The notes: a model not told the origin generated them from the sequence alone. A DNA stretch of 64,000 nucleotides from Calditrichales bacterium MX18-03 (GCA_021083345.1 JAJGRE010000003.1:496001-560000), one strand, 5' to 3'; shown: positions 3,765 through 59,786, numbered from the stretch's first letter. A program made the numbers and translations.

Positions 3765-4409
3765 CTATGACTCTAACCATTCGATTCGCTTACGTGACAG
3801 CTTAACCTTACCTTCCTCCTGCATTCTTGACAGTGTTCTGGATACCGCCTCCCTGGTTGCACCAATATCAACACCAATCTGCTCCTGTGTCAAACTGAAA
3901 ACGGCGTTTCCGGTAAGTTTCTTCTTTCCTTCAAAATATGCAGTCAGCCGGCTTTCAACACTTTCAAAACCAATATTGTTGATGACTCTGTATAGCTCAT
4001 CCATTTTATCATGCAGGTCTCTGTATATTTCCCTAAGAAATACCGGGTTGTCTGCCAAATAGGTTCTAAAAATATTATCAGGTATTATTGCCAAACGCAT
4101 TGCTTTCTCAGAGAATACCTCAAAGCTTATATCTTTATTATAAAGTAGTTTTGCAACAGTCAGATGACAGAAATCCCCTTTCCCCACACGATATACGGTA
4201 AGCTCACGCCCATTTCCACTCATGTATTGGATTCGCAGCAATCCCTCAATTACTAAAGTAAACCCCCGGCACTCATTGCCAGAGAAGCACAGTTTGTTGG
4301 CGCTGGTTTTGAATACCTCAATACTGTCAAGTATTTTATGCAAACTTACAGGCTCAAGCTTGGCGAATACCGGATAAGCTTGGAGAATTTCGTTTTCAAG
4401 TGGCTTCAA
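3765..4409 (-). CDS. Crp/Fnr family transcriptional regulator
   Basis: A 214-residue regulator with an N-terminal cyclic-nucleotide-binding fold (residues about 15-130) and a C-terminal winged helix (residues 150-212) containing LTQEQIGVDIGATREAVSRT, the Crp/Fnr recognition helix. It has no N-terminal cysteine cluster of the FNR type, so it is not an obvious 4Fe-4S oxygen sensor. Translation starts at a TTG at 4409 seven bases after GGAGG. It lies downstream of thioredoxin and a thioredoxin reductase homologue on the same strand, separated by a terminator-like hairpin, so a redox-related role is inferred, not shown. Confidence 0.9.
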   Translation of the reverse strand: MKPLENEILQAYPVFAKLEPVSLHKILDSIEVFKTSANKLCFSGNECRGFTLVIEGLLRIQYMSGNGRELTVYRVGKGDFCHLTVAKLLYNKDISFEVFSEKAMRLAIIPDNIFRTYLADNPVFLREIYRDLHDKMDELYRVINNIGFESVESRLTAYFEGKKKLTGNAVFSLTQEQIGVDIGATREAVSRTLSRMQEEGKVKLSRKRIEWLES

Positions 4410-4457
4410 TGCATACCCTCCTTATAGCGTTGATACTATATTATATTCATAAAAAAC

Positions 4458-4482
4458 AAAGCAGTGCAATAAGCACTGCTTC
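4458..4482 (-). terminator. Rho-independent terminator after thioredoxin
   Basis: Read on the minus strand, an eight-base stem (AAGCAGTG/CACTGCTT) with a short loop is followed by a T-rich run (GTTTTTTATG). It sits 22 bases after the thioredoxin stop and should end that transcript or attenuate read-through into the Crp/Fnr gene. Confidence 0.75.
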
Positions 4483-4504
4483 AACCAGTCTGTAGCGTCC
4501 ATTA

Positions 4505-4843
4505 TCAAACCGCTTTTGTCAGGCAATTATCCAGCATCTTTGCATAATACTGCTTTGGCATTGCCCCTACCAATTTATCACATACAACACCGTTTTTCAC
4601 CGCAATTACCGTAGGTATGCTCATGATCCCGAACTGATTGGCAAGCTCCGGTTCCTTATCTATATTGACCTTGCACACCTTGATACTACCTTTGTATTGT
4701 TCTGCCAGTTGGTCTATGGTTGGGCTTACCATGCGGCATGGCATGCACCATGTAGCCCAAAAGTCTATCATGACAACCTGGTCGGTATTCCTCACCTCAT
4801 TTGTGAAATTTCTGCTTGTTAGGTCAACAATATTTGCACTCAT
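4505..4843 (-). CDS. trxA: Thioredoxin with a CMPC active site
   Basis: A 112-residue thioredoxin, the usual length. The fold signatures are present: FWATWCMPCRMVSP with the redox pair, the buried Asp (MIDFWA), and the cis-proline loop SIPTV. The active site is WCMPC and not the classic WCGPC, a change known in some anaerobes that alters redox potential. It reduces protein disulfides in the cytoplasm, with electrons from the flavoprotein encoded just upstream (38 bases apart), so the two form a reductase/thioredoxin pair. Conserved family, high confidence. Confidence 0.95.
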   Translation of the reverse strand: MSANIVDLTSRNFTNEVRNTDQVVMIDFWATWCMPCRMVSPTIDQLAEQYKGSIKVCKVNIDKEPELANQFGIMSIPTVIAVKNGVVCDKLVGAMPKQYYAKMLDNCLTKAV

Positions 4844-4881
4844 TCCTATCTTCCTTTCTAATATTTAATATTCTCAAATCC

Positions 4882-5748
4882 TTATACAGCATTAGTCGGC
4901 AGCAGATGGTCCAAATAATCAGCTGCCATTAGTGCTGCAACATTCCCCTCACCGACAGCTTTTGCAATCTGAAGGGGTTTACCCGTACAGTCACCTGCAG
5001 CAAATATTCCTGGTAAATTTGTCTCCATTTTCTTATTCACTTTGATGTAAGCGCCTTCCATTTCCAATCCATCAATCAATGAACTTGTTGGCACTGAATC
5101 ACGGAATATGAAGACGCCATCAACTGCTAACTCTTCTTCTTCGGTTTTCAAAGCTTCCACCTTCATATGTCCTGCTATCGCCACTGGTTTCCTGTCTATT
5201 CTTTTAATCATCGTATTTACGTTTTCCTGATCCGGTAATTTCGAATACAAGTATATGTCATTGGTTAATTGCGAAAGATAGTTTGCTTCGTGCAAACCTT
5301 CCTCCGATTCAGCAATGACAGCAATCTTTTTACCTCTGTATAGCATGCCGTCACAAGTCCCACAGTAGCTGACTCCCCTACCCATGTATTCTGCCTCACC
5401 CCTCAATGTTTTTGGCTGGGTAGCACCTAGTGCCAGAATTATTGAATGCGCCTCGATATAGTCATAATCAATTCCTATAAGGTATCCTTTATCAGATGGT
5501 ATTATCTGTCTGACCAGTCCCCCAATGATTTCTACATCCATAGCCTTGGCCTGTTTTTCAAACACATTGAGCATTTCTCTTCCACTTACCTCCGGCAAGC
5601 CCGGATAATTATCTATGCGTTCAGCCTTTTCAAGCCAGCTGGCCTTTGATCTGTTAGAAATTACTTTGACTGTTTTATTCCTTTGCCTCGCGCTTATTGC
5701 AGCCGACAGACCGGCAGGACCCGCACCTATGACAACGATATCAAGCAT
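4882..5748 (-). CDS. Thioredoxin reductase homologue, ferredoxin-dependent (FFTR-like)
   Basis: A 288-residue FAD flavoprotein of the thioredoxin reductase fold. The FAD motif GAGPAGLSAA lies at residues 8-17, the redox-active pair in CGTCDG near residue 134, and the second FAD motif GIFAAGDCTG near 250. The NADPH-binding region is unusual: the expected GGGDSAVEEA is replaced by AESEEGLHEA, and the HRR motif that binds the 2'-phosphate is absent. This is the pattern of clostridial ferredoxin-dependent flavin thioredoxin reductases. I start it at the ATG at 5748 behind GGGAG; a longer frame to 5838 lacks support. It is followed by trxA, its likely partner. Confidence 0.85.
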   Translation of the reverse strand: MLDIVVIGAGPAGLSAAISARQRNKTVKVISNRSKASWLEKAERIDNYPGLPEVSGREMLNVFEKQAKAMDVEIIGGLVRQIIPSDKGYLIGIDYDYIEAHSIILALGATQPKTLRGEAEYMGRGVSYCGTCDGMLYRGKKIAVIAESEEGLHEANYLSQLTNDIYLYSKLPDQENVNTMIKRIDRKPVAIAGHMKVEALKTEEEELAVDGVFIFRDSVPTSSLIDGLEMEGAYIKVNKKMETNLPGIFAAGDCTGKPLQIAKAVGEGNVAALMAADYLDHLLPTNAV

Positions 5749-10896: not shown

Positions 10897-10928
10897 AGCA
10901 GCCTTAGGCTGCTAACGCGTAATTTTCG
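10897..10928 (-). pseudogene. ssrA (tmRNA) remnant 1, tag region only
   Basis: On the minus strand this short piece contains most of the tmRNA tag frame (ENYALAA then TAA), identical to the tag regions at 36122-36148 and 46990-47016. It breaks off at CGG, where a decayed proline racemase fragment begins. A junction of the same two sequences, less eroded, is seen at 46.98-47.15 kb. Confidence 0.8.
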
Positions 10929-11191
10929 GTACGACCGCCGGCATGCCGGCAATTCTCGTCTCCTCGATAATCCGACAGGTGAATATGCTTCCGATCAGGC
11001 TCTCATGAACAAAAGTTTCATTAAGCTTCAGTTCACCTTTTGCATGCAAAATTGCCATTTTAGCTGAGGTACCGGTACCGCAGGGAGATCTATCAATGGC
11101 GGCGGAAGTAATGATGACTGCGTTCCGGGCAGAAACACCAGGCGTATTGGAGGGAGCGGAAAATTAGATGTGTGTAACCTTATCCACAAAA
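10929..11191 (-). pseudogene. Proline racemase family fragment (duplicate of the 47 kb gene)
   Basis: About 262 bases match the 3' part of the intact proline racemase gene (47150-47410) with only scattered substitutions, including the catalytic-site region PCGTGTSA. One change converts a Glu codon (in the stretch read as HIEFSAP in the intact gene) to TAA, and both gene ends are missing. Same strand and same position relative to an ssrA tag as the intact copy, so it is a segmental duplication that decayed. Confidence 0.9.
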
Positions 11192-17412: not shown

Positions 17413-17540
17413 ACTCTCCCTCTACCTCACGCCCAAAAGCAGGCTTACAGCTTCAGTAGCTTCCTTTGTCATCCCTATCTCAAAGCTTTGATAGTGACGT
17501 CGCAACTTGTCACCTCTCCCGCTAAATGATGCCCAATCTT
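17413..17540 (-). pseudogene. ssrA remnant 3, central part
   Basis: Matches the tmRNA pseudoknot region (GCCCAAAAGCAGGCTTACAG, CTCAAAGCTTTGATAGTGACG, AAATGATGCCCAATC) with several mismatches, and lacks both the 3' CCA end and the tag region. Same orientation as the other copies. Confidence 0.8.
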
Positions 17541-17591: not shown

Positions 17592-18614
17592 TTATAATGG
17601 TATGATCTTGCCTATATTGTTGTTTAAAGCAATATCAAATATCTCTCTGCCCATGACAACATCACATACAGACATGCCAATATTGCTGCAGACGATTAAC
17701 TCATCTTTTGATGTTCTTCCCTTTTTCACCCCGGCCAAAATTTCTCCGGTCTCGCATACAATATTGGGTAACCCATCAGGAAAATATCCCATTTTATCAA
17801 ATAGTTCATGCTCTTCTATGCTGTCAACAATGTATTTGTCTGCTCTTTTCGTAATTCTGGGATCCCAGAAGGTATTTAAGTCACAAGGCAGTATGGTTTG
17901 GCCTTTCGATACCCACTCATCTTTAACAACAGATAATGTGTCTTTTGTGATAATTGTCGCCGAACTCAACACCTCGCAATGCTCAGCCAATTCATGAGGG
18001 TTCTTGCCTTTTATGATCGGTACATCCACCACCGGTTGAATTGTTTCAATCAGGTGATTCATAGCTGCTTCGACGACATCATAAATATATATCTTCTTTA
18101 GCTTTTTCAATGATTTAACAATAAATCTTACATGCTCCACGCCTTGAACCCCACAGCCAAACATACCAAAGGTCTCGGCATCCGGGTGCAACTCTCCTGC
18201 CGCCAGAACCGTTACTGCCGGTGTTCGCATTGCAGTAAGCCAAGTACAGTCCATGATTGCCATAGGGCATCCTGAAAGAACATCATTCAGGATCAACAGG
18301 CCCGTTGTCTGAGGGATACCGAACTTTTTTGGGTTTTGCGGGTAACATTCTATCCACTTCATACCCACTGCTTTTTTTGAAGGAACATAAGCCGGCATTG
18401 CATGAAAGAATACGTCAGAAAATGGGTGAACTCCAATTTTGGCAGGCATTTCATACTCTTTTTTCCCATGAGCCACTAATGCCTCTTTTACCAGCTCCAA
18501 TACTCTGTCTGTAGTAATCCCGATATTACTGCACTCTTGCTTTGTCAGATAAAGTACCTCTGACCCAATATTAAGCTTCTTTGATATTTCCTCTCTGTCC
18601 CTCATCAAATCCAT
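17592..18614 (-). CDS. Ornithine cyclodeaminase/mu-crystallin family protein
   Basis: A 340-residue NAD(P)-dependent enzyme of the OCD/mu-crystallin fold. Visible features are the substrate-binding MKWIECYPQNP, LTAMRTPAVTVLAA and the dinucleotide-binding FGMFGCGVQGVEHVRF (residues about 135-150). Members convert ornithine to proline, reduce cyclic imines or act as amino acid dehydrogenases; the exact substrate cannot be told. The ATG at 18614 follows AGGAGGGG. It is divergent from an AraC regulator 135 bases away, which probably controls it. Confidence 0.88.
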   Translation of the reverse strand: MDLMRDREEISKKLNIGSEVLYLTKQECSNIGITTDRVLELVKEALVAHGKKEYEMPAKIGVHPFSDVFFHAMPAYVPSKKAVGMKWIECYPQNPKKFGIPQTTGLLILNDVLSGCPMAIMDCTWLTAMRTPAVTVLAAGELHPDAETFGMFGCGVQGVEHVRFIVKSLKKLKKIYIYDVVEAAMNHLIETIQPVVDVPIIKGKNPHELAEHCEVLSSATIITKDTLSVVKDEWVSKGQTILPCDLNTFWDPRITKRADKYIVDSIEEHELFDKMGYFPDGLPNIVCETGEILAGVKKGRTSKDELIVCSNIGMSVCDVVMGREIFDIALNNNIGKIIPL

Positions 18615-18749
18615 AATCTTTCCCCTCCTTTGATAATATACTAAATGAAACTTGCAGTGTTCCATTTGTCTATATTATACTTAAAACACACCACTATATA
18701 AATGAATAATGTTAGTAATTACTATACAAAATTAAACCGGAGGATAACA

Positions 18750-19652: not shown

Positions 19653-19740
19653 AAAAAGCAGATACATTACTGAACAATCAGTGAAGATTGTAGAGTCATT
19701 AATGGCTATTTCTCCATAAAAGAATCCCTGCGTGATGGCA

Positions 19741-19915
19741 TCTTGGTCAGAACTTCGACCATCGCGACTTCTGTTTGCTGGATGCTTTAGCCTCCGACCA
19801 TTCCCTCTACCGCACGCCCAAAAGTAGGCTTACGGCAACACCCATCCCAAGGCGAGGGAATCCCGGGTTGAACGAGCAGCCTTAGGCTGCAAAGCGTCAT
19901 TTTCGTTAGCGTTTA
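19741..19915 (-). pseudogene. ssrA remnant 4, with a frameshifted tag
   Basis: Contains the anticodon-arm-side sequence (TCTTGGTCAGAACTTCGACC), the conserved middle and the tag, but has lost the central pseudoknot segment and the CCA end. The tag reads GCTAACGAAAATGACGCTTTG and is one base shorter than the intact tag frame, so it cannot encode ANENYALAA. This directly shows decay. Confidence 0.85.
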
Positions 19916-19964
19916 AATTTAAGTATCTATCAAGAATTTTGTGCTTTGCTCTTTGTTAACTCCC

Positions 19965-26034: not shown

Positions 26035-26215
26035 GAATTCCATCCCTACCTCCTGATGTTCGGTCCTTCCCCGATGTTCCAGACCATCTGGGTACTATGA
26101 CCTCTGCTGACTTCCGGCTGTTTAGTCATGCATCACTGCGTGGGTTGCTGCTTAGAAATTCATCACTGCAGCTTATCTGCCATACTTCCGCGGGTAAGCT
26201 CGCGCGCATGCCGCG
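26035..26215 (-). pseudogene. Possible group II intron 5' remnant
   Basis: On the minus strand one frame reads TKQPEVSRGHS and continues into WNIGEGPNIRR before a stop; another reads SRKSAEVIVP. Such sequence is found just upstream of the reverse transcriptase ORF in many clostridial group II introns. No reverse transcriptase or domain V is present. I make this call from memory of the family and cannot confirm it here. Confidence 0.35.
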
Positions 26216-34748: not shown

Positions 34749-35860
34749 TATTCAAAATTCTGACCCATCCTTAAAAGTGAACCGTATATCCTCTTCCGAG
34801 AACACAGTTACTGTATCCACCAGTGTATGCCGCAATCTCACTTCAAATTCAGCAATCAGTTCATATTGCTCCTTAAGTCTGCACAAAAAAGCTTCAACGC
34901 TTTCACGTCGCACCTTTATTTTCTGCTGATGCTCGCTAATTTCATTAAACCTTGCCTTTGCCACTTCAAACCTTGCACCAGCCCTTATAACTCTTCTTGT
35001 ATTCTTCCTGGTCAAGCTTGGCTTGAGCATTTTCATTGACACATTTTTGTATAAGCCCGGCAACAACAGACATTTCGTTTCTCATTTCTGAATGCTCCAT
35101 CTCAAGCTTTGTGACATCGAATATGGTGTTCTTAATCATTTCAAAGTTTTCTAATATTGCATCTTTATTTGAAATTAGTTTATTTACACCTGTGACAAAT
35201 AGCTTTTTTATATTCTCTTCGTTTATATGTGGGGTCTTGCACTTATCGGCTCCTTTGAATTTATTATTGCACTGGAATATCACCCGGCGGTACTTACTGT
35301 TTGAATGCCAAACCTTTGAACCATATAGACCTCCACATTCTCCGCATATTATCTTACTTGAGAACATCCCTGCACTACTGTGGCGGTTTTTCATGGTTTT
35401 CCTTTGCTTCATCTTTTCCTGAACCATTTCGAAAACATCTGATGAATTAATCGCCGGATGGCTGTTTTCTACATAATATTGGGGCACTTCACTCTCGTTG
35501 ACCTTCTGCTTCTTGGTCAGAAAATCCACTGTGTATTTCTTTTGCAAAAGAGCATCACCTTTATATTTTTCGTTGGTTAGGATATTTCGGATAGTTCCTG
35601 ACTGCCATTTTTCCTTGCCTCCCGGCGAGGTTAAGCCTTGCTCGGTAAGATGTTTTGCAATGCAATGCGGTGTCTGCCCTTCAAGGAAAAGTCGGTAAAT
35701 AAGCCGGACTATTTTCGCTTCTTCCTCATTAATCTGTGGCAGACCATCTTCACTCCTGTCATATCCAAGAAATCGTGAGTAAGGTAGACTAACTTTTCCA
35801 TCTGCAAACCTTTTCCTCTGACCCCATGTGACATTTTCAGAAATACTCCTGCGTTCCTCT
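34749..35860 (-). pseudogene. Large serine recombinase, truncated and frameshifted
   Basis: The minus strand encodes the recombinase domain and zinc-ribbon of a large serine (site-specific) recombinase: ENVTWGQRKRFADGKVSL, IYRLFLEGQTPHCIAKHL, GTIRNILTNEKYKGDALL, then the zinc ribbon CGECGGLYGSKVW with CNNKFKGADKCKTP and a coiled coil. The catalytic N-terminal domain is missing: the reading frame starts directly after an ssrA 3' end. A frameshift near 34970-35060 separates the last hundred codons (HTLVDTVTVFSEEDIRFTFK). Such enzymes move prophages and ICEs. The gene is dead. Confidence 0.9.
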
Positions 35861-36212
35861 TGGTGGAGGCGAGTGGAATCGAACCCCTGTCCGAAAGTAT
35901 CTTGGTCAGAACCTCGACCAGCGCAGCTTCTGTTTGCCGGATGCTTTAGCCTCCGACCATTCCCTCTACCGCACGGCCAAAAGCAGGCTTACGGCTTCAG
36001 TAGCTATATAATGCGTCAGTTATCTCAAATCTTTGATAGTGACGCCGCAACTTGTTGCTTCCCCCTCTAAATGACGCCCAACCCCAAGGTGAGGGAACCC
36101 CGGGTTGAGCGAGCAGCCTTAGGCTGCTAACGCGTAATTTTCGTTAGCGTTTAAATTAATTTTCCAGCTTTTTATGGTGCCTCTGGGACCACCGCTCGCT
36201 ATCCCGGCCTTA
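35861..36212 (-). pseudogene. ssrA: ssrA copy 5, the most complete, lacking its 5' end
   Basis: Read on the minus strand, this contains a 5'-side helix region (from GGGATAGCGAGCGG), the resume/tag frame encoding ANENYALAA with TAA (36148-36119), the pseudoknots, the T-arm (GGGGTTCGATTCCACTCGCC) and the CCA end at 35861. The first 25-30 bases, which should include the GGTTTCGACGGGG tRNA-like segment and pair with the acceptor, are absent: the sequence breaks off at AAGGCCGGG. Without that half it cannot form alanyl-tmRNA. Confidence 0.85.
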
Positions 36213-44543: not shown

Positions 44544-44873
44544 ATGGATGATGATATTAAACATTTAACCAAGAGAATTAAATTAGCAAAGCAAGAAATT
44601 AAATTAAAACCCGAAAGCTCCTATCTGGAAACATACATCTTTGAGCTTGAGCAAGATTTAGAACAATATAAAGAAAATAGAGATAAAGCTGAAGCGAGCA
44701 TATCAAACTCAAATATACCGCCTGATATGCTATCATTAATAAGAGGTGAACTAAAAGAATTCATAAGTGGCATTTGGACCTATACTCCCGATGTCCAGCA
44801 TAATATACTTAAAAAGTATGTCATATCAGTTTCTTCAGTTCTAGAAAAACAACTTTATTGCAATCTGGAATAA
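44544..44873 (+). pseudogene. Probable C-terminal relic of a coiled-coil protein, possibly a serine recombinase
   Basis: A 109-codon frame: a long charged coiled coil (residues 1-60) followed by LIRGELKEFISGIWTYTPDV and ILKKYVISVSSV. The coiled coil plus a terminal stretch like WxxxxxxxxxxILKxxV resembles the C-terminus of large serine recombinases. There is no ribosome binding site and it sits on the plus strand among minus-strand relics. Function not claimed. Confidence 0.35.
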
Positions 44874-46762: not shown

Positions 46763-47018
46763 TGGTGGAGGCGAGGGGAATCGAACCCCTGTCCGAAAGC
46801 ATCTTGGTCAGAACCTCGACCAGCGCAGCTTCTGTTTTAACATTCCCTCTACCGCACGCCCAAAAGCAGGCTTACAGCTTCAGTAGCTTCATAATGCGTC
46901 AGTTATCTCAAAGCTTTGATAGTGACGTACCCCTCTAAATGACGCCCAATCCCAAGGTGAGGGAACCCCGGGTTGAACGAGCAGCCTTAGGCTGCTAACG
47001 CGTAATTTTCGTTAGCGT
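46763..47018 (-). pseudogene. ssrA: ssrA copy 6, with CCA end and intact tag, lacking the 5' half
   Basis: Minus strand: tag frame ANENYALAA plus TAA (47016-46987), pseudoknot region, T-arm and CCA end at 46763; the terminator hairpin follows at 46748. A 25-base segment of the helix present in copy 5 (GGATGCTTTAGCCTCCGACC region) is deleted, and the tRNA-like 5' half is absent: sequence diverges at TTATAACGAGCAGG. Not functional as tmRNA. Confidence 0.88.
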
Positions 47019-47055
47019 TTATAACGAGCAGGCAAATCTATATTTCCTTAAAACA

Positions 47056-48063
47056 TTAGCCTAGTTCAAACCCTTCAGCCAGAGGATCGTCAGGGTCCAT
47101 CATAAACGTACTCATGCCGGTTAGAAAGGCGCGGCCGCTAATCTCCGGTATGACCGCCGGCATGCCGGCAATTTTCGTCTCCGCGATAATCCGGCAGGTG
47201 AATATGCTTCCGATCAGGCTCTCATGAACAAAAGTTTCATTAAGCTTCAATTCACCTTTTGCATGCAAAATTGCCATTTTTGCTGAGGTACCGGTACCGC
47301 AGGGAGATCTATCAATGGCGGCGGAAGTAATGATGACCGCGTTCCGGGCAGAAACACCAGGCGTATTGGAGGGAGCGGAAAATTCGATGTGTGTAACCTT
47401 ATCCACAAAAGGGAGTTCGGGATGACGGACCTGGATCTGCTCGTTGATGTACTTTCTTAGTAAAACCCCCTTTGCCACAATCTCTTTGGATCGTTCAGGT
47501 ACTAGTTCCAACCCAAGCGAGGCAGCCGGTAGGATCGCATACATATTTCCGCCATATGCCACGTCAAAGGTTACACGGCCGAATTCAGGCGTGTCAACAT
47601 AGTAGTCACGACCAATCACAAGGGCAGGTGCATTCACGAACGTAACATTCTTTGCCCTTTGATCCTCTACTTCCACACGCGCTTGAACAACACCGCTGGG
47701 TGTATCGAAAACGATGTCAGTAAAGGGTTCTTTAACTTCCACCATACCAGTTTCCACCAAAGCCGTAGCGACGCCGATAGTGTCATGGCCGCACATCGGG
47801 AGCCAGCCGCCGGTTTCATAATACAATACGCCGATATCCGCACCTAGGGTGCAGGGCGGAGTCAAAAACGCTCCGGACATTACTTCATTGCCGCGAGGTT
47901 CTAGACACAGTACTCTACGCATCCAGTCATTATGCGTCTGCATATAAATGAATTTTTCTTGCATCGTTGAACCAGGAATCACCGGCACACCACCTACGAC
48001 GGTTCTAGTGGGTTCTCCACCGGTATGTGTATCTATTGTTTGAAAAGTTCTACGAATTTTCAT
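47056..48063 (-). CDS. Proline racemase/4-hydroxyproline epimerase family enzyme
   Basis: A 335-residue cofactor-independent racemase fold enzyme. Both catalytic cysteines are present: first in WLPMCGHDTIGVATAL (near residue 90) and second in DRSPCGTGTSAKMA (near 253). Having both Cys fits a proline racemase or trans-4-hydroxy-L-proline 2-epimerase and argues against the 3-hydroxyproline dehydratase type, in which one Cys is Thr. GAGG precedes the ATG. It follows the serine dehydratase gene in a catabolic cluster. A decayed piece of the same gene is at 10929-11191. Confidence 0.92.
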   Translation of the reverse strand: MKIRRTFQTIDTHTGGEPTRTVVGGVPVIPGSTMQEKFIYMQTHNDWMRRVLCLEPRGNEVMSGAFLTPPCTLGADIGVLYYETGGWLPMCGHDTIGVATALVETGMVEVKEPFTDIVFDTPSGVVQARVEVEDQRAKNVTFVNAPALVIGRDYYVDTPEFGRVTFDVAYGGNMYAILPAASLGLELVPERSKEIVAKGVLLRKYINEQIQVRHPELPFVDKVTHIEFSAPSNTPGVSARNAVIITSAAIDRSPCGTGTSAKMAILHAKGELKLNETFVHESLIGSIFTCRIIAETKIAGMPAVIPEISGRAFLTGMSTFMMDPDDPLAEGFELG

Positions 48064-48110
48064 TTTAACCTCTATTTCGCCGCTACCGCTGGCGACACAA
48101 ATTGTAATGT

Positions 48111-48139
48111 AAAGTGGTGCGCAGTATTCACCACTTTTT
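48111..48139 (-). terminator. Hairpin between serine dehydratase and racemase genes
   Basis: AAAGTGGTG and CACCACTTT pair across a 9-base loop. It may terminate or attenuate the serine dehydratase transcript. Confidence 0.6.
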
Positions 48140-48240
48140 GTTAAGAATTTTTTGAAGAGAAGCTAAAGTATAAAGCACGATGAGTTGAACTTACATACCA
48201 TGAGATATCTCCTTTAAGAACAACTTCATACACATTCGCA

Positions 48241-49809
48241 TTATGGTAGCCGCTTGCTGATTTCAATGGAGGTTTTTGTCTTCCCGAGGCCACCAAAGGT
48301 GCACCGAAGTTCCAGTGGAAGCTTTAGTCCCATATCGTATATTGCAGCAATGGTTTCATCCAGAGGTATTACTTTATCATAACCAGCCAACGCCATATTA
48401 GCGCTGGCAATGGCATTAGAACCGCCCATGATATTCTTCCCAAGACAAGGTACCTCAACCCGATTTGCCACCGGGTCGCATGCCAATCCCGTTATATTTT
48501 GCAGAGCCATAGAAGCTGCATCCACACATTGCTCCACAGTGCCATGGAACATCTGTGTAATGCCAGCTGCAGCCATACCAGAACCAGCCCCGCATTCTAC
48601 CTGACATCCGGCCACCTCTGCTGCAAATGTTGCTCCTTCTGAAATAAATACGCCAATTAATCCTGCTGCAAGCATTCCTTTTGTAATTTCTTCCCGAGAC
48701 ATGCCCATGGTTTTGCCAACCCCCAGAAGCGTACCAGGCAGACAGCCGCAGGAACCTGCAGTAGGCGCTGCCACAATTACACCCATAGAGCTTTTTACTT
48801 CCATGATGGCTGTAATAGACTTAATAACGTGAATCAGTATGTCACCCGGAATCAAACAACCCTTTTGGACACCCTCCTCTATTTTATACGCCTGGGGCCC
48901 CAGAATTCGGTATGAATATTTTGTGCCGGCCAAGCCTTCCGCGATACAGTTTTCCATGATTTCTACAAGTCGGTACATTTTATCAAATACATCTTGTTCT
49001 GTGGTATTGCCCCGCTTGCTTTCATACAGTGCAGCTAGTTCCCACATTTCCCTGTTTTCATTTTTCGCCCACTCCAAAAGCTGGGCGGCTGTCGTAAATG
49101 GCACCTTGCAGTTCACGCTTGACTGAGTAGGAAGGATGGGATGTATATGTACGACATCAAGAACATATAAAGTCCGGCGCAATTCCGTCAATATTTTATC
49201 ATCAAGTTGTGATATAGCTTTAATATTGATTAGTCCTTGGTTAGAACCCTCGATGCAGGCAATGTCTTCGTATTCCTTTACGATGCTTTTAATTGTTTGA
49301 AGAACATCTTCCAGTGCGCATTCAGTGGTATCAACTTTTATAAGGAGCTCATAAAAATCGCCGCATATGCATATTTTAAAACCATCGAAATTCTGCATTT
49401 CGATCATGCCACCACCTACAGAAATTGCTTCCCATTTATGGCAAGCTCCATCCTCCGAATATGCTTCTATTCTGTAATTATTGGGGTGTGCTGCACCATA
49501 ATCAGAAATATGGAATTGTATGTCAACCCCCCGTTCTTTGGCAATTTCACATGCATGCGGTACAGATATGTCTGTCAACTCCATCCCCAGAATACCACTG
49601 ACAAAGCCTATATCTGAACCATGTCCATGATAAGATTCAGCAAGAGAGCCATTAATATCAAAATTCACAGTAACCCTTATAACCTTTTCATTTAATGACT
49701 GTCTTACAATGTTCCCAATCCGCGCAGCACCAGCTACATGGGAACTCGAAGGACCTCGCATAACAGGTCCTATGACATCGTTAAATATGCTGGCAGGTAG
49801 TTTTTCCAT
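48241..49809 (-). CDS. L-serine dehydratase, iron-sulfur type, beta and alpha fused
   Basis: A 522-residue single-chain L-serine ammonia-lyase. The N-terminal part is the beta domain (VIGPVMRGPSSSHVAGAARI, residues about 12-31) with an ACT-like stretch, and the C-terminal half is the alpha domain (APTAGSCGCLPGTLLG; CQVECGAGSGMAAAG; GLACDPVANRVEVPCLGKN) that holds the 4Fe-4S cluster. It deaminates L-serine to pyruvate and ammonia, feeding fermentation. GGGGGG precedes the start. It lies between the symporter and the racemase genes on the same strand. Confidence 0.95.
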   Translation of the reverse strand: MEKLPASIFNDVIGPVMRGPSSSHVAGAARIGNIVRQSLNEKVIRVTVNFDINGSLAESYHGHGSDIGFVSGILGMELTDISVPHACEIAKERGVDIQFHISDYGAAHPNNYRIEAYSEDGACHKWEAISVGGGMIEMQNFDGFKICICGDFYELLIKVDTTECALEDVLQTIKSIVKEYEDIACIEGSNQGLINIKAISQLDDKILTELRRTLYVLDVVHIHPILPTQSSVNCKVPFTTAAQLLEWAKNENREMWELAALYESKRGNTTEQDVFDKMYRLVEIMENCIAEGLAGTKYSYRILGPQAYKIEEGVQKGCLIPGDILIHVIKSITAIMEVKSSMGVIVAAPTAGSCGCLPGTLLGVGKTMGMSREEITKGMLAAGLIGVFISEGATFAAEVAGCQVECGAGSGMAAAGITQMFHGTVEQCVDAASMALQNITGLACDPVANRVEVPCLGKNIMGGSNAIASANMALAGYDKVIPLDETIAAIYDMGLKLPLELRCTFGGLGKTKTSIEISKRLP

Positions 49810-49932
49810 AATGCCCCCCTGTTTCTATATTCCGTCAACTAGCTTCATCATTCTTTTTTAATATTTCTCATCTGAGTATATCTTTCATACTTAACATCAA
49901 CATTGGTTTCAAATTGTAAATATCATATTATC

Positions 49933-49965
49933 ATTACAAAAGCAGATATTCACTGCTTTTGTAAT
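49933..49965 (-). terminator. Terminator after the symporter gene
   Basis: ATTACAAAAGCAG and CTGCTTTTGTAAT form a perfect 13-base stem with a 7-base loop, 12 bases after the symporter stop codon. The T-run is short, so efficiency is uncertain. Confidence 0.65.
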
Positions 49966-49977
49966 GATAAATCCTCT

Positions 49978-51291
49978 TTATGATAAATTAATGGAATTGC
50001 CAACCTTGGTTTCCCATTTCGTTGTATCCAACAGTCCTTCGCTCTTTGCTACAATAACTGTTCCAGCAATATCTCCAGTTACATTTACTGCCGTTCTTCC
50101 CATGTCAAGAATTACGTCAATTCCAAGAATCAAAGCGAAAACTGCACCGACTATAGTTCCAGCTTCAACATTAAGACCTACCATGTTCATAACTGCCAGC
50201 AGAATAACCGGCCCTGAGCCAGCGATTCCAGCAGTGCCCATTGTACCAACAGTAACAACGAAAATAACTATTAATTGTTGTGGAAATGAAAGATGAATCC
50301 CTGCAGCAAAAGCAGCACAGAATACAGATAATATCTGATAATAAGCTTCCCCATCCAAATTGATTTGTGATCCAAGTGGTAGAGTAAAGCCCCCTATACT
50401 TCTTGGTACTCCTAGCTTTTCTTCGGCAACTCTTAATGTTACAGGCAAAGTTGCTCCGCTGCTCCTTGTTGCAAATGCCATAAGTGTAGCCTCTCGTGCC
50501 CTTGAAAGAAAATTCCAAAAGTTTAATTTATTAATAGATAAGAAAGTTCCGTATACAACAAAAAGTTGAATGGCATAACCAAGATAACAAAGCCCTATTA
50601 AGACGGCCATAGAACTAAGAATCTTAGTACCTTGTTGTGCAAAAACCACACTAATCAACGCAAAAATACCTATTGGAGTATATTGGAGCACTGCATTTGT
50701 AATGCCGAACATTATTTCTGCTACGCCCTCACAGAATTTATAAACTGTCGTGACTGCTGTACTAATTCTCTCATCTTTATGATCTCTGAGAAATGAAACT
50801 GCAAGCCCGAATAATAAAGCGAAAACCACTACTTGTAAATAAGCGCCATTAGCAAATGAAGCTGCCACATTATCAGGCACCATGTTTAACATGACTTCGC
50901 TAATGGAAGGATTGCTGACTGAAGCACCTTCAGCAGCAGCCGCTCCTGAAAAAGCCATACCCAATCCTGGTTTAAAAATATTCGCCAAAATAAGACCAAT
51001 CGAAGCTGCAAGTAAGGTAGTAAAAAAATAGTATAAAAGTATTTTCCCTGAGACCCTTCCAATTTTTGAAGCAGGCATGCTCCCAACGCCCATTACTATT
51101 GCAGAAAATATGAGCGGCAGTATAATCATTTTAAGTAGCTTAATCATCAACGTACCTAAGGGTTCAATTACTGCAATTTTCGGACCAACAACCACCCCGA
51201 GGATTGCACCTGCAATAAGAGCTGTTAGAATTCTCCATACAAGAGGCGTGTCAAAATACCAGCTCAACCATTTTTTCTCTTTTCTATCCAT
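49978..51291 (-). CDS. Dicarboxylate/amino acid:cation symporter (DAACS family)
   Basis: A 437-residue secondary transporter of the glutamate/aspartate symporter fold with eight helices and two re-entrant hairpins. Hallmarks are LIFSAIVMGVGSMP, the serine-rich first hairpin FATRSSGATLPVTL, LGSQINLDGEAYYQ and the second hairpin GSGPVILLAVMNMVG. It imports a dicarboxylate or an acidic or neutral (for example serine) amino acid with Na+ or H+. In this cluster it probably brings in the substrate. A palindrome lies 33 bases upstream. Confidence 0.93.
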   Translation of the reverse strand: MDRKEKKWLSWYFDTPLVWRILTALIAGAILGVVVGPKIAVIEPLGTLMIKLLKMIILPLIFSAIVMGVGSMPASKIGRVSGKILLYYFFTTLLAASIGLILANIFKPGLGMAFSGAAAAEGASVSNPSISEVMLNMVPDNVAASFANGAYLQVVVFALLFGLAVSFLRDHKDERISTAVTTVYKFCEGVAEIMFGITNAVLQYTPIGIFALISVVFAQQGTKILSSMAVLIGLCYLGYAIQLFVVYGTFLSINKLNFWNFLSRAREATLMAFATRSSGATLPVTLRVAEEKLGVPRSIGGFTLPLGSQINLDGEAYYQILSVFCAAFAAGIHLSFPQQLIVIFVVTVGTMGTAGIAGSGPVILLAVMNMVGLNVEAGTIVGAVFALILGIDVILDMGRTAVNVTGDIAGTVIVAKSEGLLDTTKWETKVGNSINLS

Positions 51292-51323
51292 TTTTGCACC
51301 TTCCTTTATAATTTTTTCTATAA

Positions 51324-51340
51324 TAACCGATTAACGGTTA
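51324..51340 (-). promoter_or_regulatory. Palindromic site upstream of the symporter
   Basis: TAACCG-ATTAA-CGGTTA, six-base arms. It is placed where an operator for the symporter gene would lie. The binding protein is unknown; it differs from the GntR-type site upstream of AOR. Confidence 0.45.
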
Positions 51341-51353
51341 CTATCGCATCTTT

Positions 51354-51399
51354 AAAGCAGTTACCCTGTTTCCCCTTGGTAATATTTTGTAACTGCTTT
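51354..51399 (-). terminator. Hairpin after the DapA-family gene
   Basis: AAAGCAGTTA and TAACTGCTTT pair across a 25-base loop, between the DapA-family stop and the symporter promoter. Probable terminator. Confidence 0.55.
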
Positions 51400-51474
51400 T
51401 GAAATAAACATAAGGATTTGGAATATGGAACTAGTGAGGGCATGTTTCTGGTCCTACCAGCTAAAAAGGCAAAT

Positions 51475-52359
51475 TTAAATAAGCTGAAGGGATTTCAAAA
51501 TATCTACCAATTCAGCTTCTTCTTTTTCATTCAAAGGCCCTCGTGGTAATCTTGCTGGACCCGCAGGTCTCCCCATAAGGTTCAGGCTTGCTTTTACCTT
51601 CTGTATGGCTTTTGGTGTGTTTTCCAGCATATCAAGGAGAGGATACAGCTTTTCAAATAATTCCCTTGACTCTTCAAGTTTGCCGTCTCGAACTAATTCA
51701 TAGAGCATTTGTGCTTGTTTTGGCACTATGTTGGCACATACGCATATCCAACCCGTTGCACCCAGTATGAAATTTTGGAGAGATAAATCCTCACCACCAC
51801 AAAATACGTTAACTTTTCCTTTAACCAATCTTACAAGATCAGATGTCCTTCTTAGGTCACCTGAAGCATCCTTAACATATTCTACGTTTTTTAAAGTACC
51901 AATCTTTGCAATCAGTTCCGGTTTCATGTCTACGCCTGTATGAGCCGGGTTATTATATACCATTATGGGTATGCTTACAACCTCGGAAACAGCCTTATAG
52001 TGGGCGAATATCTCATCTTCGGTGGGAAGGCAATAATAAGGATTGATTATCATTACGCCATCTGCACCAATTTCTTCAGCATGCTTTGTTAAGAATATCG
52101 TTTCGGCTGTAGTTTCGGCTGCTGTTCCAACCAAACATTTTATTCTTCCATTCACATGCTTCACTGCGGTTTCTGCAATAGCTAATCTTTCCTCTTTCGT
52201 AAGGCTGGGAAACTCCCCTGTGCTGCCGCACACACATATACCTGGTATTCCTTCCGCTATCATCCAGTCTATGTTTTTCTTAAGACCCTCCAGATCAACC
52301 TCCTGATTGAGAGTCATTGGTGTGATTAAAACTGCAAAAGAACCTTTCATTGCTTCCAT
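51475..52359 (-). CDS. DapA/NanA family class I aldolase or dehydratase
   Basis: A 294-residue TIM-barrel lyase. Signatures: GICVCGSTGEFPSLT (carbonyl-binding TT/ST pair), YNNPAHTGVDM (catalytic Tyr) and VKDASGD (Schiff-base Lys near residue 162). It could be a dihydrodipicolinate synthase paralogue, a 2-keto-3-deoxy acid aldolase or a 1-pyrroline-4-hydroxy-2-carboxylate deaminase. The presence of a hydroxyproline-epimerase-type gene in the cluster favours the last, by inference only. AGGAGG precedes the start. Confidence 0.9.
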   Translation of the reverse strand: MEAMKGSFAVLITPMTLNQEVDLEGLKKNIDWMIAEGIPGICVCGSTGEFPSLTKEERLAIAETAVKHVNGRIKCLVGTAAETTAETIFLTKHAEEIGADGVMIINPYYCLPTEDEIFAHYKAVSEVVSIPIMVYNNPAHTGVDMKPELIAKIGTLKNVEYVKDASGDLRRTSDLVRLVKGKVNVFCGGEDLSLQNFILGATGWICVCANIVPKQAQMLYELVRDGKLEESRELFEKLYPLLDMLENTPKAIQKVKASLNLMGRPAGPARLPRGPLNEKEEAELVDILKSLQLI

Positions 52360-52394
52360 TTAAGAACCTCCTTTTGTTTAAACTATATTTTAAT

Positions 52395-52592
52395 TTACCC
52401 ACCGGATAAGGGCTTAATGATTTTTATTATATCACGCTCCTTCAAAACAGCATTTTCATATTCCTTTTCCAGCAGCTTATTTCCATTCACAAATACCGTA
52501 ACCCAACCGTGATGCCCCAGTTGCTTCAACAGCTTCTCTACAGTAATACTGCTGTCAACAGAGATTTCCTTATTATTCACATCAATCTTCAT
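52395..52592 (-). CDS. MoaD/ThiS-like sulfur carrier
   Basis: A 65-residue ubiquitin-fold protein ending in PLSGG, the C-terminal diglycine needed for adenylation and thiocarboxylation. The ATG at 52592 is inside the end of the AOR gene (11-base overlap) with GGAGG upstream; a longer frame in the databases style would begin at 52811 and is spurious. Pairing with an aldehyde:ferredoxin oxidoreductase is common, so it probably supplies sulfur for the tungsto-/molybdopterin of that enzyme. Confidence 0.85.
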   Translation of the reverse strand: MKIDVNNKEISVDSSITVEKLLKQLGHHGWVTVFVNGNKLLEKEYENAVLKERDIIKIIKPLSGG

Positions 52593-54489
52593 CTGAACCT
52601 CCAGACAACCATTGCAGAGAAAGCCTCCGCAAATTCGAACCGGTTGGATTACCGGTTGCCTTATCCCACCCGGCGAATTCATAGTACAATTCCTTGGCAC
52701 TCTCAAAAGCATCCTTATCCAAGCATCGGCCCTTTGAAGGCCCGTCGGTGAAAGGCTGGAATATTCTTTCCGGCAGTGTATCCTGCGCTTTGGTGAAGCC
52801 TTCTCTTGCATTGAAGTATCTCATCATATTTATTCTTCTCTCTCCTATTTGCATAAGCTCATAGATAGAGGTATCCCATCCTATTCCATACTTGCACAAT
52901 GCTATCAGTTCCTCAGGTCCATAGAGCTCCCAAGCAGGCCCCCAAACGAATTGGCATAAGCATAAGGTATCAAGCATGGAAAAATAACACTGAGTATCAA
53001 AAGCAAATCTTACTTTTTCATCATCCAGTTCAAAGGGATTGTCATATCCTTTATGTATTCCAAGCATAGCCAGTCTCTTTCTCACAATATTATCCTCTGG
53101 AAGAGTGAGGAAAGGGTCGTGCTCGCTCGACTGATGATCTGCTCCGAAAGGGTTGACAGCATAGACTAATCCTACCGAGGGCTTAAACTGAGGCATATGA
53201 GCCGGGAGTTCCTGGCCCTTGACACTCATACTTAAGCTTAGGGCTTCGCCGCCAATGGTTTCCGCGGCTTTTCTGGAACCTTCAGCCAATAAATTGCCAA
53301 AACCTTCTCTATAAGCTATTTTCTTGATTAACTCTTCCAATACTTCACGATTGCCGAAGTTAAGATTCATTCCTTCAGTGTCTTTATAGGAGATAAGACC
53401 CTTTTCAAAGCATTCCATTGCAAAGGCTATCGTTGCGCCGCAGGATATGGTGTCTATACCACACATATTGCAAAGCTGGTTTGCAAGGGATATTGCTGTC
53501 AAATCTGTAATACCGCAATAGGAACCAAAGGTGGCGCAAGTTTCATATTCAGGTCCCCCATACATCGGATCAATAACTCCAGGTACTTCTACCACCCTTT
53601 TGCATCTTACTGCACAGCCGAAGCAAGTGTCACGCTCTTTCAATATGGTTTGAGTCATAGTTGCTCCTGTAATATTAGAAGCCCCTTCAGGAAAATAACC
53701 CGTAGTCCAGTTTTTAGTTGGAAGAAACCCTTCTAGATGAAAACCTTCCAAATCTCCATCGGTGCCATGCTCAAATAATCCGGATAGAGCAGGATTATTT
53801 CTTATGGTCTTCATTGCATTTTTCCCAAAGTTACTGAAGTTCTCTGGATCATGAGCCTTGATAGCCTTTGTCTTTTTTACTACAACAGCTTTAAGGTTTT
53901 TAGAGCCCATTACAGCCCCCATACCGTTTCTGCCGTTTGCTCTATTACACTTATTGATGATGCATGCATAACGTACCAGATTTTCACCGGCAGGTCCTAT
54001 TTGCGCAATTTCCACATTGGAAGTGCCAATTTCTTCTCTTATTATTTTCTCACTTTCACCGGTTACCTTCCTCCATACCCTGGATCCATCCATCAGCTTT
54101 ATATCATCACCATCAATATATATGTATACTGGTTCTGCTGCCCTACCTCGAAGGATTATGGCATCAAATCCGTTACCTTTAAGATATGCAGGGAAAAAAC
54201 CACCAGCTTGACTGTCCCCTATGGCTCCTGTCAAAGGACTCTTTGCAGTGGCTACAATTCTGCTCAAACCGCTTGCCGGCAGTCCTGTGAGAGGAGAAAC
54301 TGAGAAAACTAATATGTTATCGGGTGATAATGGATCTATACAAGGCTTTATATTTCTCAACAAAAGATATGAGCCTAATGCAGATCCCCCGGGATAAAGT
54401 CTATAGATTTCTCCGGGCAAAGTAGCTTTCTCCACCTTCATATTAGTCAAATCTATATCCAATATTTTCGCTTCAGGGAATAAACTCAT
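52582..54489 (-). CDS. Aldehyde:ferredoxin oxidoreductase family enzyme
   Basis: A 635-residue tungsten-pterin enzyme of the AOR family that oxidises aldehydes to acids with ferredoxin. The N-terminal domain has YPGGSALGSYLL, the pterin-binding NGRNGMGAVMGSKNLKA near residue 190, and the 4Fe-4S cysteines in CFGCAVRCKR (residues about 290-300) with the fourth probably in LCLCQF near 525. The start at 54489 follows GGAGGT with good spacing; an ATG six bases upstream is too close. First gene of the catabolic operon, downstream of a GntR-type operator. Confidence 0.93.
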   Translation of the reverse strand: MSLFPEAKILDIDLTNMKVEKATLPGEIYRLYPGGSALGSYLLLRNIKPCIDPLSPDNILVFSVSPLTGLPASGLSRIVATAKSPLTGAIGDSQAGGFFPAYLKGNGFDAIILRGRAAEPVYIYIDGDDIKLMDGSRVWRKVTGESEKIIREEIGTSNVEIAQIGPAGENLVRYACIINKCNRANGRNGMGAVMGSKNLKAVVVKKTKAIKAHDPENFSNFGKNAMKTIRNNPALSGLFEHGTDGDLEGFHLEGFLPTKNWTTGYFPEGASNITGATMTQTILKERDTCFGCAVRCKRVVEVPGVIDPMYGGPEYETCATFGSYCGITDLTAISLANQLCNMCGIDTISCGATIAFAMECFEKGLISYKDTEGMNLNFGNREVLEELIKKIAYREGFGNLLAEGSRKAAETIGGEALSLSMSVKGQELPAHMPQFKPSVGLVYAVNPFGADHQSSEHDPFLTLPEDNIVRKRLAMLGIHKGYDNPFELDDEKVRFAFDTQCYFSMLDTLCLCQFVWGPAWELYGPEELIALCKYGIGWDTSIYELMQIGERRINMMRYFNAREGFTKAQDTLPERIFQPFTDGPSKGRCLDKDAFESAKELYYEFAGWDKATGNPTGSNLRRLSLQWLSGGSDED

Positions 54490-54513
54490 ATTCATACCTC
54501 CAATACATTCATA

Positions 54514-54530
54514 ATCTGGTCAGACCAGAT
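54514..54530 (-). promoter_or_regulatory. GntR/FadR-type operator
   Basis: ATCTGGTC-A-GACCAGAT is a perfect 17-base palindrome with the TGGTC-N-GACCA core typical of FadR-subfamily GntR sites, 25 bases upstream of the AOR start. The divergent GntR gene at 54794 is the likely ligand-responsive regulator. Confidence 0.8.
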
Positions 54531-54793: not shown

Positions 54794-55480
54794 ATGAAAT
54801 TAGAAAAGACCATGTCACTCAAAATAGCTGAGTCCTTAAAAGATGATATAGAGTTTGGGGTATTGAAACCCGGGGATAAACTAGTATCAGAAAGAGATTT
54901 GGTGAGGAAATTTCAGGCAAGCCGCTCATCCATCAGAGAGGCAGTGAAGATTCTTGCTAGCCTGGGCTACATAGAATCCTTAGAAAGAAAAGGTAATTAT
55001 GTCTCCGCAAAATACCAAGATAAAAAATATGAGAATATCCAATTGAACGAGTTATTAAAGAATGGATCTATATCTGACTTAATGGAAGTAAGATTTTTCT
55101 TAGAAGAAAATTTTATTAAACTAGCTATCCAAAGGGCAAATGAGAAAGACTTTAAGAAAATGAAAGCTGTAATAACTAGAATGAAGAACAGCGAGGATTT
55201 ATCCACGTTTTTACAGGCCGATATGGACTTTCATCTTGCCCTTGCAGAAACTACTCATAATGAATTAATTTTAGAACTGATGAAGATAATCATAAAAAGA
55301 ATAGGGGACAATCAAGACTACTTTTTGGCGACAGCACTTAGAACCCGTCTTTATACTATTGACTCCTTTGAAAGACTGGTGGATAATCTCATAAATAAAA
55401 ACTTGGATGAAGCTAAACGCATTCATTACGAACATCTGCATCTAGTAAAAGATGCTTTAGAAAAAAACGGGTGCTCTTAA
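54794..55480 (+). CDS. GntR/FadR family regulator (FCD domain)
   Basis: A 228-residue regulator. Residues 8-75 are a GntR winged helix (GVLKPGDKLVSERDLVRKFQ, ASRSSIREAVKILASLGYIE). Residues 90-225 are an FCD helical ligand domain with its metal-binding pattern (DLMEVRFFLEE; FLQADMDFHLALAETT; His near the end). FCD proteins respond to small carboxylates. It is divergent from the AOR operon and probably represses it through the palindrome at 54514. GGGAG precedes the start. Confidence 0.93.
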   Translation: MKLEKTMSLKIAESLKDDIEFGVLKPGDKLVSERDLVRKFQASRSSIREAVKILASLGYIESLERKGNYVSAKYQDKKYENIQLNELLKNGSISDLMEVRFFLEENFIKLAIQRANEKDFKKMKAVITRMKNSEDLSTFLQADMDFHLALAETTHNELILELMKIIIKRIGDNQDYFLATALRTRLYTIDSFERLVDNLINKNLDEAKRIHYEHLHLVKDALEKNGCS

Positions 55481-55695: not shown

Positions 55696-55756
55696 TGGTG
55701 GAGGCGAGGGGAATCGAACCCCTGTCCGAAAGCATCTTGGTCAGAACCTCGACCAG
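55696..55756 (-). pseudogene. ssrA remnant 7a, CCA-end half, split by IS21
   Basis: The tmRNA 3' part with T-arm and CCA end (TGGTGGAGGCGAGGGGAATC on the plus strand) and the arm down to CCTCGACCAG. Interrupted at 55756 by the IS21 element; the rest continues at 58110. Confidence 0.9.
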
Positions 55757-58109: not shown

Positions 58110-58297
58110 ACCAGCGCAGCTTCTGTTTTAACATTCCCTCTACCGCACGCCCAAAAGCAGGCTTACGGCTTCAGTAGCTTCATACTGTGCCAGTTATCTC
58201 AAAGCTTTGATAGTGACGTACTCTGCCATATGACGCCCGATCCCGGGGTACGGAAACTATATATTATCAATGCATACTGGCTGCCATGGCCTCAACG
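58110..58297 (-). pseudogene. ssrA remnant 7b and 45-base flank
   Basis: Continues remnant 7a beyond the IS21 with CAGCGCAGCTTCTG, the pseudoknot region and CGATCCCGGGGT, then ends before the tag. From 58253 to 58297 it shares a non-ssrA sequence (ATTATCAATGCATACTGGCT and following) with remnant 9 at 59.75 kb. No tag is left. Confidence 0.85.
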
Positions 58298-59468: not shown

Positions 59469-59626
59469 AAAAACTCCTATTAATTGTTAGCAAGAGTCCT
59501 TGCTAAAATAATGTTTAATTAGAAATCAAAAATAGAAAAACATACTTTAAGCTGTTATTCAGATGCATTACCACCATCTGTCTAGCCAACTTTCTCTACT
59601 AATATGTACGTAAAAAACTGAGTTCT

Positions 59627-59786
59627 CCTCTACCGCACGCCGGCTGACAGGCTAACGACTTCAGCAGCTTCATAATGCGTCAATTGCCTCAAAGCTTTGG
59701 CAGTGACGTACCCTGCCATATGGCGCCCGAGCCCGGGGTGCGGAAAGTCAATATTATTAATGCATGCTGGCTGCCATGGCCTTAAC
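59627..59786 (-). pseudogene. ssrA remnant 8 and shared flank
   Basis: Contains CTCTACCGCACGCC, TCAGCAGCTTCATAATGCGT, CTCAAAGCTTTGGCAGTGAC and GCCCGGGGTGCGG, then the same flank as 7b (TTATTAATGCATGCTGGCTG). Some compensated changes suggest age. It has no CCA end or tag. Together with 7b it brackets the amidohydrolase gene. Confidence 0.85.

Follow-up and report, generated by a model that had tools for sequence, protein, structure and literature searches.

The question raised by this stretch of DNA (64,000 nucleotides of Calditrichales bacterium MX18-03, GCA_021083345.1 JAJGRE010000003.1:496001-560000; the whole stretch is called the window below) is which substrate is served by a block of six genes that brings together a PF05544 racemase/epimerase and an aldehyde:ferredoxin oxidoreductase (AOR). 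A first-pass annotation had proposed a possible anaerobic catabolic route for hydroxyproline or a related compound, ending in the AOR, and all the genes it had named for this cluster (racemase, DapA family, symporter, AOR, MoaD-like partner and GntR regulator) were found in place. Our own reading, to which we give nearly even chances, is that the block encodes most of an anaerobic 4-hydroxyproline epimerase pathway with an AOR at its end. Protein families, specificity residues, tree groupings, the recurrence of gene combinations and a pair of operator-like sites were computed, and from these we infer the reactions, the substrate, the regulation and the transfer of the block.

The genes lie on the minus strand and run from 54495 down to 47056. 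The AOR gene (52582-54495; PF02730 and PF01314) overlaps by 11 nt that of a ThiS/MoaD-like small protein (52395-52592), a partner that also occurs 3' of the AOR in several relatives, and a 35-nt gap leads on to the gene of the DapA-family protein (51475-52359). The symporter (49978-51291; SDF family, PF00375), a serine-dehydratase-like protein (48241-49809) and the racemase (47056-48063) follow after gaps of 183, 168 and 177 nt, respectively, such that AOR-MoaD-DapA form a tight unit and the other three genes are arranged more loosely. The serine dehydratase that had been noted in the block is indeed present, as a fused beta-alpha iron-sulfur L-serine-dehydratase-like protein, and the gene of an FCD-type GntR regulator, divergent from the AOR gene (54794-55480, plus strand), starts just beyond the range of the first-pass annotation. 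All six block genes are intact, with open frames throughout and plausible ribosome sites. The main domains were identified with E-values of 2e-61 to 5e-122, those of the MoaD-like protein (3e-8), the GntR regulator (7e-14 and 2e-18) and the dehydratase beta domain (8e-13) being weaker. A 138-aa open reading frame (ORF) at the MoaD-like gene was rejected as a longer, spurious reading.

In the pathway proposed here, the PF05544 protein would epimerise trans-4-hydroxy-L-proline to cis-4-hydroxy-D-proline, from which a dehydrogenase encoded elsewhere would make pyrroline-4-hydroxy-2-carboxylate, the only candidates for this step being distant HcnABC-like complexes on C10 and C12 (C7, C8, C10 and C12 are contigs of the window genome, G000; L and G numbers denote loci and genomes). 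The DapA-family enzyme would turn this compound into 2-oxoglutarate semialdehyde, and the AOR would oxidise the semialdehyde to 2-oxoglutarate with reduction of ferredoxin, replacing the NAD-dependent dehydrogenase of aerobes. Control of AOR-MoaD-DapA and of the symporter probably lies with the GntR regulator.

The residues of the racemase point to hydroxyproline. In proline racemases site R1 is Phe and R2 is Leu or Cys; in hydroxyproline epimerases the residues are Ser or Val at R1 and His at R2 (PMC1964878; PMC4364671). Alignment of the window racemase identified the catalytic Cys/Cys pair (MCGH and DRSPCGTG), Ser at R1 (EPRGNEVMSG) and His at R2 (VTHIEF), with neither the Phe nor the Cys or Leu of a proline racemase. 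Ser/His is common to this protein and the racemases of bacillar hydroxyproline-type clusters, a comparison that left out the protein of Bacillus cereus itself, which provides the nearest functional evidence (assignment by growth on hydroxyproline and gene induction, the protein resisting purification; PMC4113996). Phe/Leu was found in the genome's other racemase (C8) and in the nine class relatives examined, all of proline-racemase type. In a tree from which long branches were left out, the proline racemases group in one clade (100/100) and the window racemase falls outside it, so that the comparison with characterised members suggested in the first-pass annotation came out on the epimerase side, and the window racemase is taken to be of 4-hydroxyproline-epimerase type, with a predicted epimerase activity. 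Its best plasmid match (50% identity) belongs to a Bacillus badius cluster, and in a plasmid DNA search with the whole block the similarity was confined to the racemase gene. An ordinary proline racemase, with the block forming part of proline metabolism, would agree with the best NCBIfam score of the protein (the proline racemase model, at 386 bits under a cut-off of 556) and with its best solved relative, likewise a proline racemase. Since the deciding sites hold Ser/His rather than Phe/Leu, the protein lies outside the proline-racemase clade and the genome has only sub-threshold PrdA matches, none being over the cut-off, we consider this highly improbable.

The DapA-family protein (PF00701, 7e-76; Schiff-base lysine aligned in VKDASG) has its best plasmid match, at 47%, in the same Bacillus badius cluster that holds the top-ranked match of the racemase, together with FAD dehydrogenases, [2Fe-2S] proteins and an aldehyde dehydrogenase. 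Phylogeny, the check that had been proposed for it, grouped the protein with DapA proteins of hydroxyproline clusters in a clade of the window, L027 and B. badius proteins (97/93), apart from the lysine-pathway DapA of the genome itself (C7) and of E. coli, and the window protein has His where the latter type has Arg. It is thus a candidate pyrroline-4-hydroxy-2-carboxylate deaminase, as judged by its grouping. The DapA proteins of the hydroxyproline clusters of Priestia megaterium and of proteobacteria fall in a different group, and because of this split the deaminase function may have evolved repeatedly in the DapA superfamily, or one of the groupings misleads. Among 391 genomes the only class relative was found in G018 (44%), beside TRAP and FAD genes, and none of the PDB matches listed was a named deaminase structure.

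The gene contexts of AOR relatives, read in 80 kept loci, and of further genomes supply the step that the block lacks. In L027, a Clostridia metagenome-assembled genome, a D-hydroxyproline-dehydrogenase-like complex adjoins DapA and AOR, the order being ABC transporter, MttB-like, HcnA, HcnB, ferredoxin, BFD, HcnC, DapA and AOR; its HcnC shares 47-49% identity with the bacillar-cluster FAD dehydrogenase, and the DapA and AOR proteins are 55% and 69% identical to those of the window. In G637, and alike in G804 of the same genus, peptide transport and peptidase genes are followed by DapA, a Ser/His racemase, HcnA, HcnB, BFD, HcnC and AOR. The G637 racemase is 56% identical to that of P. megaterium and its HcnC 54% identical to that of L027; its AOR is only 36% identical to the L027 AOR, the G637/G804 AOR belonging to another clade than that of the window and L027, and its DapA is only a distant relative of the window DapA. 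G806 has the same order from DapA to HcnC on a contig that stops short of the AOR position. Reading of the L027/G543 and G637-genus stretches by eye revealed no aldehyde dehydrogenase. These contexts complement each other (epimerase, DapA and AOR in the window; dehydrogenase, DapA and AOR in L027; all four in G637), and it is mainly for this reason that the earlier proposal was taken seriously. As other genomes join the same genes with the missing dehydrogenase, the data suggest that in some anaerobes a ferredoxin-reducing enzyme takes the last step of the known hydroxyproline pathway. MttB-like proteins were seen beside the dehydrogenase-DapA-AOR cluster of L027 (L027:2922-4355; L187:1783-3201 and 4250-5665), and one near the L027 cluster could demethylate hydroxyproline betaine ahead of the pathway.

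The AOR itself has both domains, the four cluster cysteines (CxxCxxxC...C) and the equivalents of Glu313 and His448. Members of the AOR family accept tungsten or molybdenum, and the label tungsten-type is given to the window protein by family only. The residue Tyr427, described as conserved in AORs (PMC12096430), has His as its equivalent in 40 of the 44 proteins aligned (AORs of the window, L024-L059, G637 and the genome's own C8 paralogues), including those of the window, L027 and G637, and as judged from this alignment His is a feature of the clade. A semialdehyde is a chemically reasonable substrate, since a C5 semialdehyde is the presumed substrate of FOR, an AOR relative (PMC12096430). 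Beside the AORs of the 80 relatives' loci there was no racemase match.

Two operator-like sites suggest a tie between the core and the symporter. The motif CTGGTNNGACCAG occurs at two sites in 64 kb against 0.03 expected, a number that overstates the surprise as the motif was chosen after both sites had been seen: the palindrome CTGGTCAGACCAG in the gap between the AOR and GntR genes (54516-54528), and CTGGTAGGACCAG on the minus strand (51448-51460), about 155 nt before the symporter start. The looser TGGTNNNACCA was found at three sites against 0.76 expected. TGGT-N3-ACCA is the operator type of FadR-family GntR proteins. Since one candidate operator precedes the AOR and another the symporter, the sites suggest that AOR-MoaD-DapA and the symporter form one regulon. 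No site of the CTGGTNNGACCAG type is present before the serine dehydratase or the racemase, and these two genes are less tightly tied to the putative regulon. An 18-bp perfect hairpin just past the symporter gene (49928-49970) may separate their transcripts from that of the symporter, although terminator-like matches in this region are no commoner than in shuffles.

The earlier proposal is supported in part. That an AOR replaces the semialdehyde dehydrogenase is favoured by the adjacent dehydrogenase complex, DapA and AOR of L027/G543 and of the G637 genus, while a number of observations at this locus and in this genome weigh against a hydroxyproline pathway here. That a D-hydroxyproline dehydrogenase is missing from the cluster had been noted correctly, and the genome search that was to follow yielded no orthologue, the best three matches being relatives of about 30% identity. 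Two of these are the HcnABC-like FAD/[2Fe-2S] complexes on C10 (about 228-234 kb; L115) and C12 (about 241-247 kb; L113/L114), each followed by an unusual, long AOR-like protein (717-774 aa; 64% identical to each other). These complexes belong to a different clade; they were rejected as orthologues and are retained as distant candidates. The nearest solved relative of the C12 complex is 1y56_B, listed as sarcosine oxidase and known as an L-proline dehydrogenase subunit; the two complexes perhaps couple the oxidation of proline or of N-methyl amino acids to an AOR. Furthermore, the genome already has a separate hydroxyproline route in HypD, the glycyl-radical trans-4-hydroxy-L-proline dehydratase, which was identified over the curated cut-off (1427 against 1100 bits; C10:164943-167291, L193:8940-11300) with an activase-like gene upstream. 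Its presence makes hydroxyproline a plausible substrate for the organism and means that a second route is not needed. The racemase has ILH as its R3 block and Ile at site 5, where characterised epimerases have XLA and Cys/Tyr, and is for this reason termed epimerase-type rather than epimerase; as the bacillar cluster racemases are likewise without these features, the R3/site-5 rule may fail for the bacillar-type group. The racemase and serine dehydratase genes both stand at some distance from the core and lack an operator-like site upstream, and the serine-dehydratase-like protein has no explained part in the pathway. The latter was also considered as a key to the substrate and rejected, its relatives in the regions read not being adjacent to racemase, DapA or AOR. 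The symporter, of GltTk type, keeps in alignment the arginine of transmembrane segment 8 (TM8) of acidic amino-acid transporters, a residue that binds a side-chain carboxylate, and for this reason it is predicted to carry an acidic amino acid. Lastly, the closest relative of the AOR (L024, 72%) is in an ectoine-like cluster, so that the AOR clade is uninformative on the substrate.

Such ectoine-like clusters recur with many of the closest AOR relatives (L024-L026, L028-L030, L032 and partly L031) and consist of GntR, an ectoine-hydrolase-like M24 protein, a transporter (mostly TRAP, but amino-acid ABC in L032), a CpsA/DoeB2-like M20 hydrolase, AOR, often MoaD, and an SHMT-like protein; the L024 cluster is at L024:3619-13391. 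These clusters possibly serve anaerobic (hydroxy)ectoine breakdown, in which the SHMT-like aldolase would release an aldehyde for the AOR. A PF02423 gene (ornithine cyclodeaminase/mu-crystallin; window 17592-18665, minus strand) lies about 29 kb off the block and is from a family that includes the pyrroline-2-carboxylate reductases of 3-hydroxyproline routes.

The symporter and the company kept by the AOR could also be explained if the AOR-MoaD-DapA core and the symporter served another acidic or hydroxylated amino acid, such as hydroxyglutamate or hydroxyaspartate. The serine-dehydratase-like enzyme would then deaminate a beta-hydroxy amino acid, the DapA protein would act as a retro-aldolase on a 4-hydroxy-2-oxoacid, the AOR would oxidise the aldehyde released, and the racemase would be a neighbour or serve another step. 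The TM8 arginine is found in a symporter inside the putative regulon, and the combination of ammonia-lyase, DapA and AOR does recur: in L036 an AOR of this clade adjoins genes for a DapA-family member (35%), RidA and a threonine-dehydratase-like protein; the aldolase-type SHMT-like protein of the ectoine-like clusters is a further neighbour of this AOR clade. However, the window DapA groups with the DapA proteins of hydroxyproline clusters and not with that of L036, the racemase residues point to hydroxyproline, and the relatives of the serine dehydratase have no link to DapA or AOR. We regard this explanation as somewhat unlikely.

The surroundings of the block indicate how it may have arrived. 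Partial copies of ssrA (tmRNA), mostly of the 3' part from the tag ORF onward, occur in the window at 10897-10931, 17417-17536, 19701-19919, 35860-36153, 46763-47021, 55696-55756 with 58110-58257, and 59600-59747. The copy at 46763-47021 (minus strand; again the 3' part starting with the tag ORF) borders directly on the racemase, and on the far side of the block the ssrA 3' end is repeated exactly over 61 bp (55696-55756, minus strand), with a continuation at 58110 past an IS21-like element. The G+C content is 0.40 in the window and 0.425 in the block, compared to 0.49-0.53 in five regions elsewhere in the genome. The window is read as an ssrA integration hotspot with several generations of insertions, at which the block, lying among repeated ssrA fragments and being AT-rich, was probably acquired by this anaerobic bacterium. 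To the right of the window no intact ssrA was found up to the contig end. Near ssrA copies, two ORFs (34966-35547, minus strand; 44544-44873, plus strand) resemble by eye C-terminal remnants of large serine recombinases, and a group II intron D1-D4-1 match is present at 26063-26147 (minus strand; RF01998, 59.6 bits). A truncated copy of the racemase gene (10920-11191, minus strand; 96% identical to 47139-47410 over 272-276 nt) is fused to the ssrA fragment at 10.9 kb.

Repeated integration and insertion sequence (IS) activity at ssrA could have left a patchwork instead of a working pathway, with the AOR as a general aldehyde scavenger and the racemase as a left-over; ssrA pieces and IS elements on both flanks, the truncated racemase copy, the missing dehydrogenase and the low G+C would all fit. 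Six intact genes, a tightly packed AOR-MoaD-DapA unit that shares an operator-like site with the symporter unit, and the recurrence of the DapA-AOR adjacency in L027 speak against such a left-over, which we hold to be decidedly unlikely. A wider proposal, itself unlikely as a whole, is that some anaerobes have two hydroxyproline arms: HypD would lead by dehydration to proline, and an epimerase-dehydrogenase-deaminase-AOR arm, moving via ssrA hotspots and having recruited AORs of different clades independently, would conserve the semialdehyde oxidation as reduced ferredoxin.

To our knowledge, no physiological substrate has been assigned to most AORs, and detoxification is often given as their role. 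An AOR at the aldehyde-dehydrogenase position of the aerobic pathway gives a concrete, testable substrate in 2-oxoglutarate semialdehyde and, if the proposal is true, low-potential electrons would be gained from hydroxyproline, an abundant amino acid of collagen. No paper joining tungsten, aldehyde oxidoreductase and hydroxyproline was found in the part of the literature covered by our search.

Among known systems, the proline racemase/D-proline reductase (prd) system has a racemase of the same superfamily with the Cys/Cys pair, and differs from the block in the specificity residues and in PrdA, which gave no match over the cut-off in this genome. The HypD route of Clostridia (PMC9044972; PMC7077986) is alike in the anaerobic use of trans-4-hydroxy-L-proline, and the genome studied here encodes HypD at another place; this route, however, runs by dehydration to pyrroline-5-carboxylate, involves no epimerase, DapA or AOR and relies on unrelated genes. 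The AOR sensu stricto and FOR of Pyrococcus furiosus (1aor, 1b25) are of the same family as the window AOR, which retains the cysteine ligands of the cluster and counterparts of Glu313 and His448, but stands in its own clade with His for Tyr427 and a MoaD-like gene attached. The aerobic 4-hydroxyproline epimerase pathway, for example in Bacillus cereus (PMC4113996), consists of HypE, a D-hydroxyproline oxidase/dehydrogenase, a DapA-type deaminase and 2-oxoglutarate semialdehyde dehydrogenase. The epimerase-type and DapA-family proteins of the block are of bacillar type, whereas the dehydrogenase is encoded in L027 and G637 and was not found here, and the aldehyde dehydrogenase gives way to an AOR with its MoaD-like gene. 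With its enzyme activities as predicted, an AOR-ended hydroxyproline pathway would be a new form of this known pathway.

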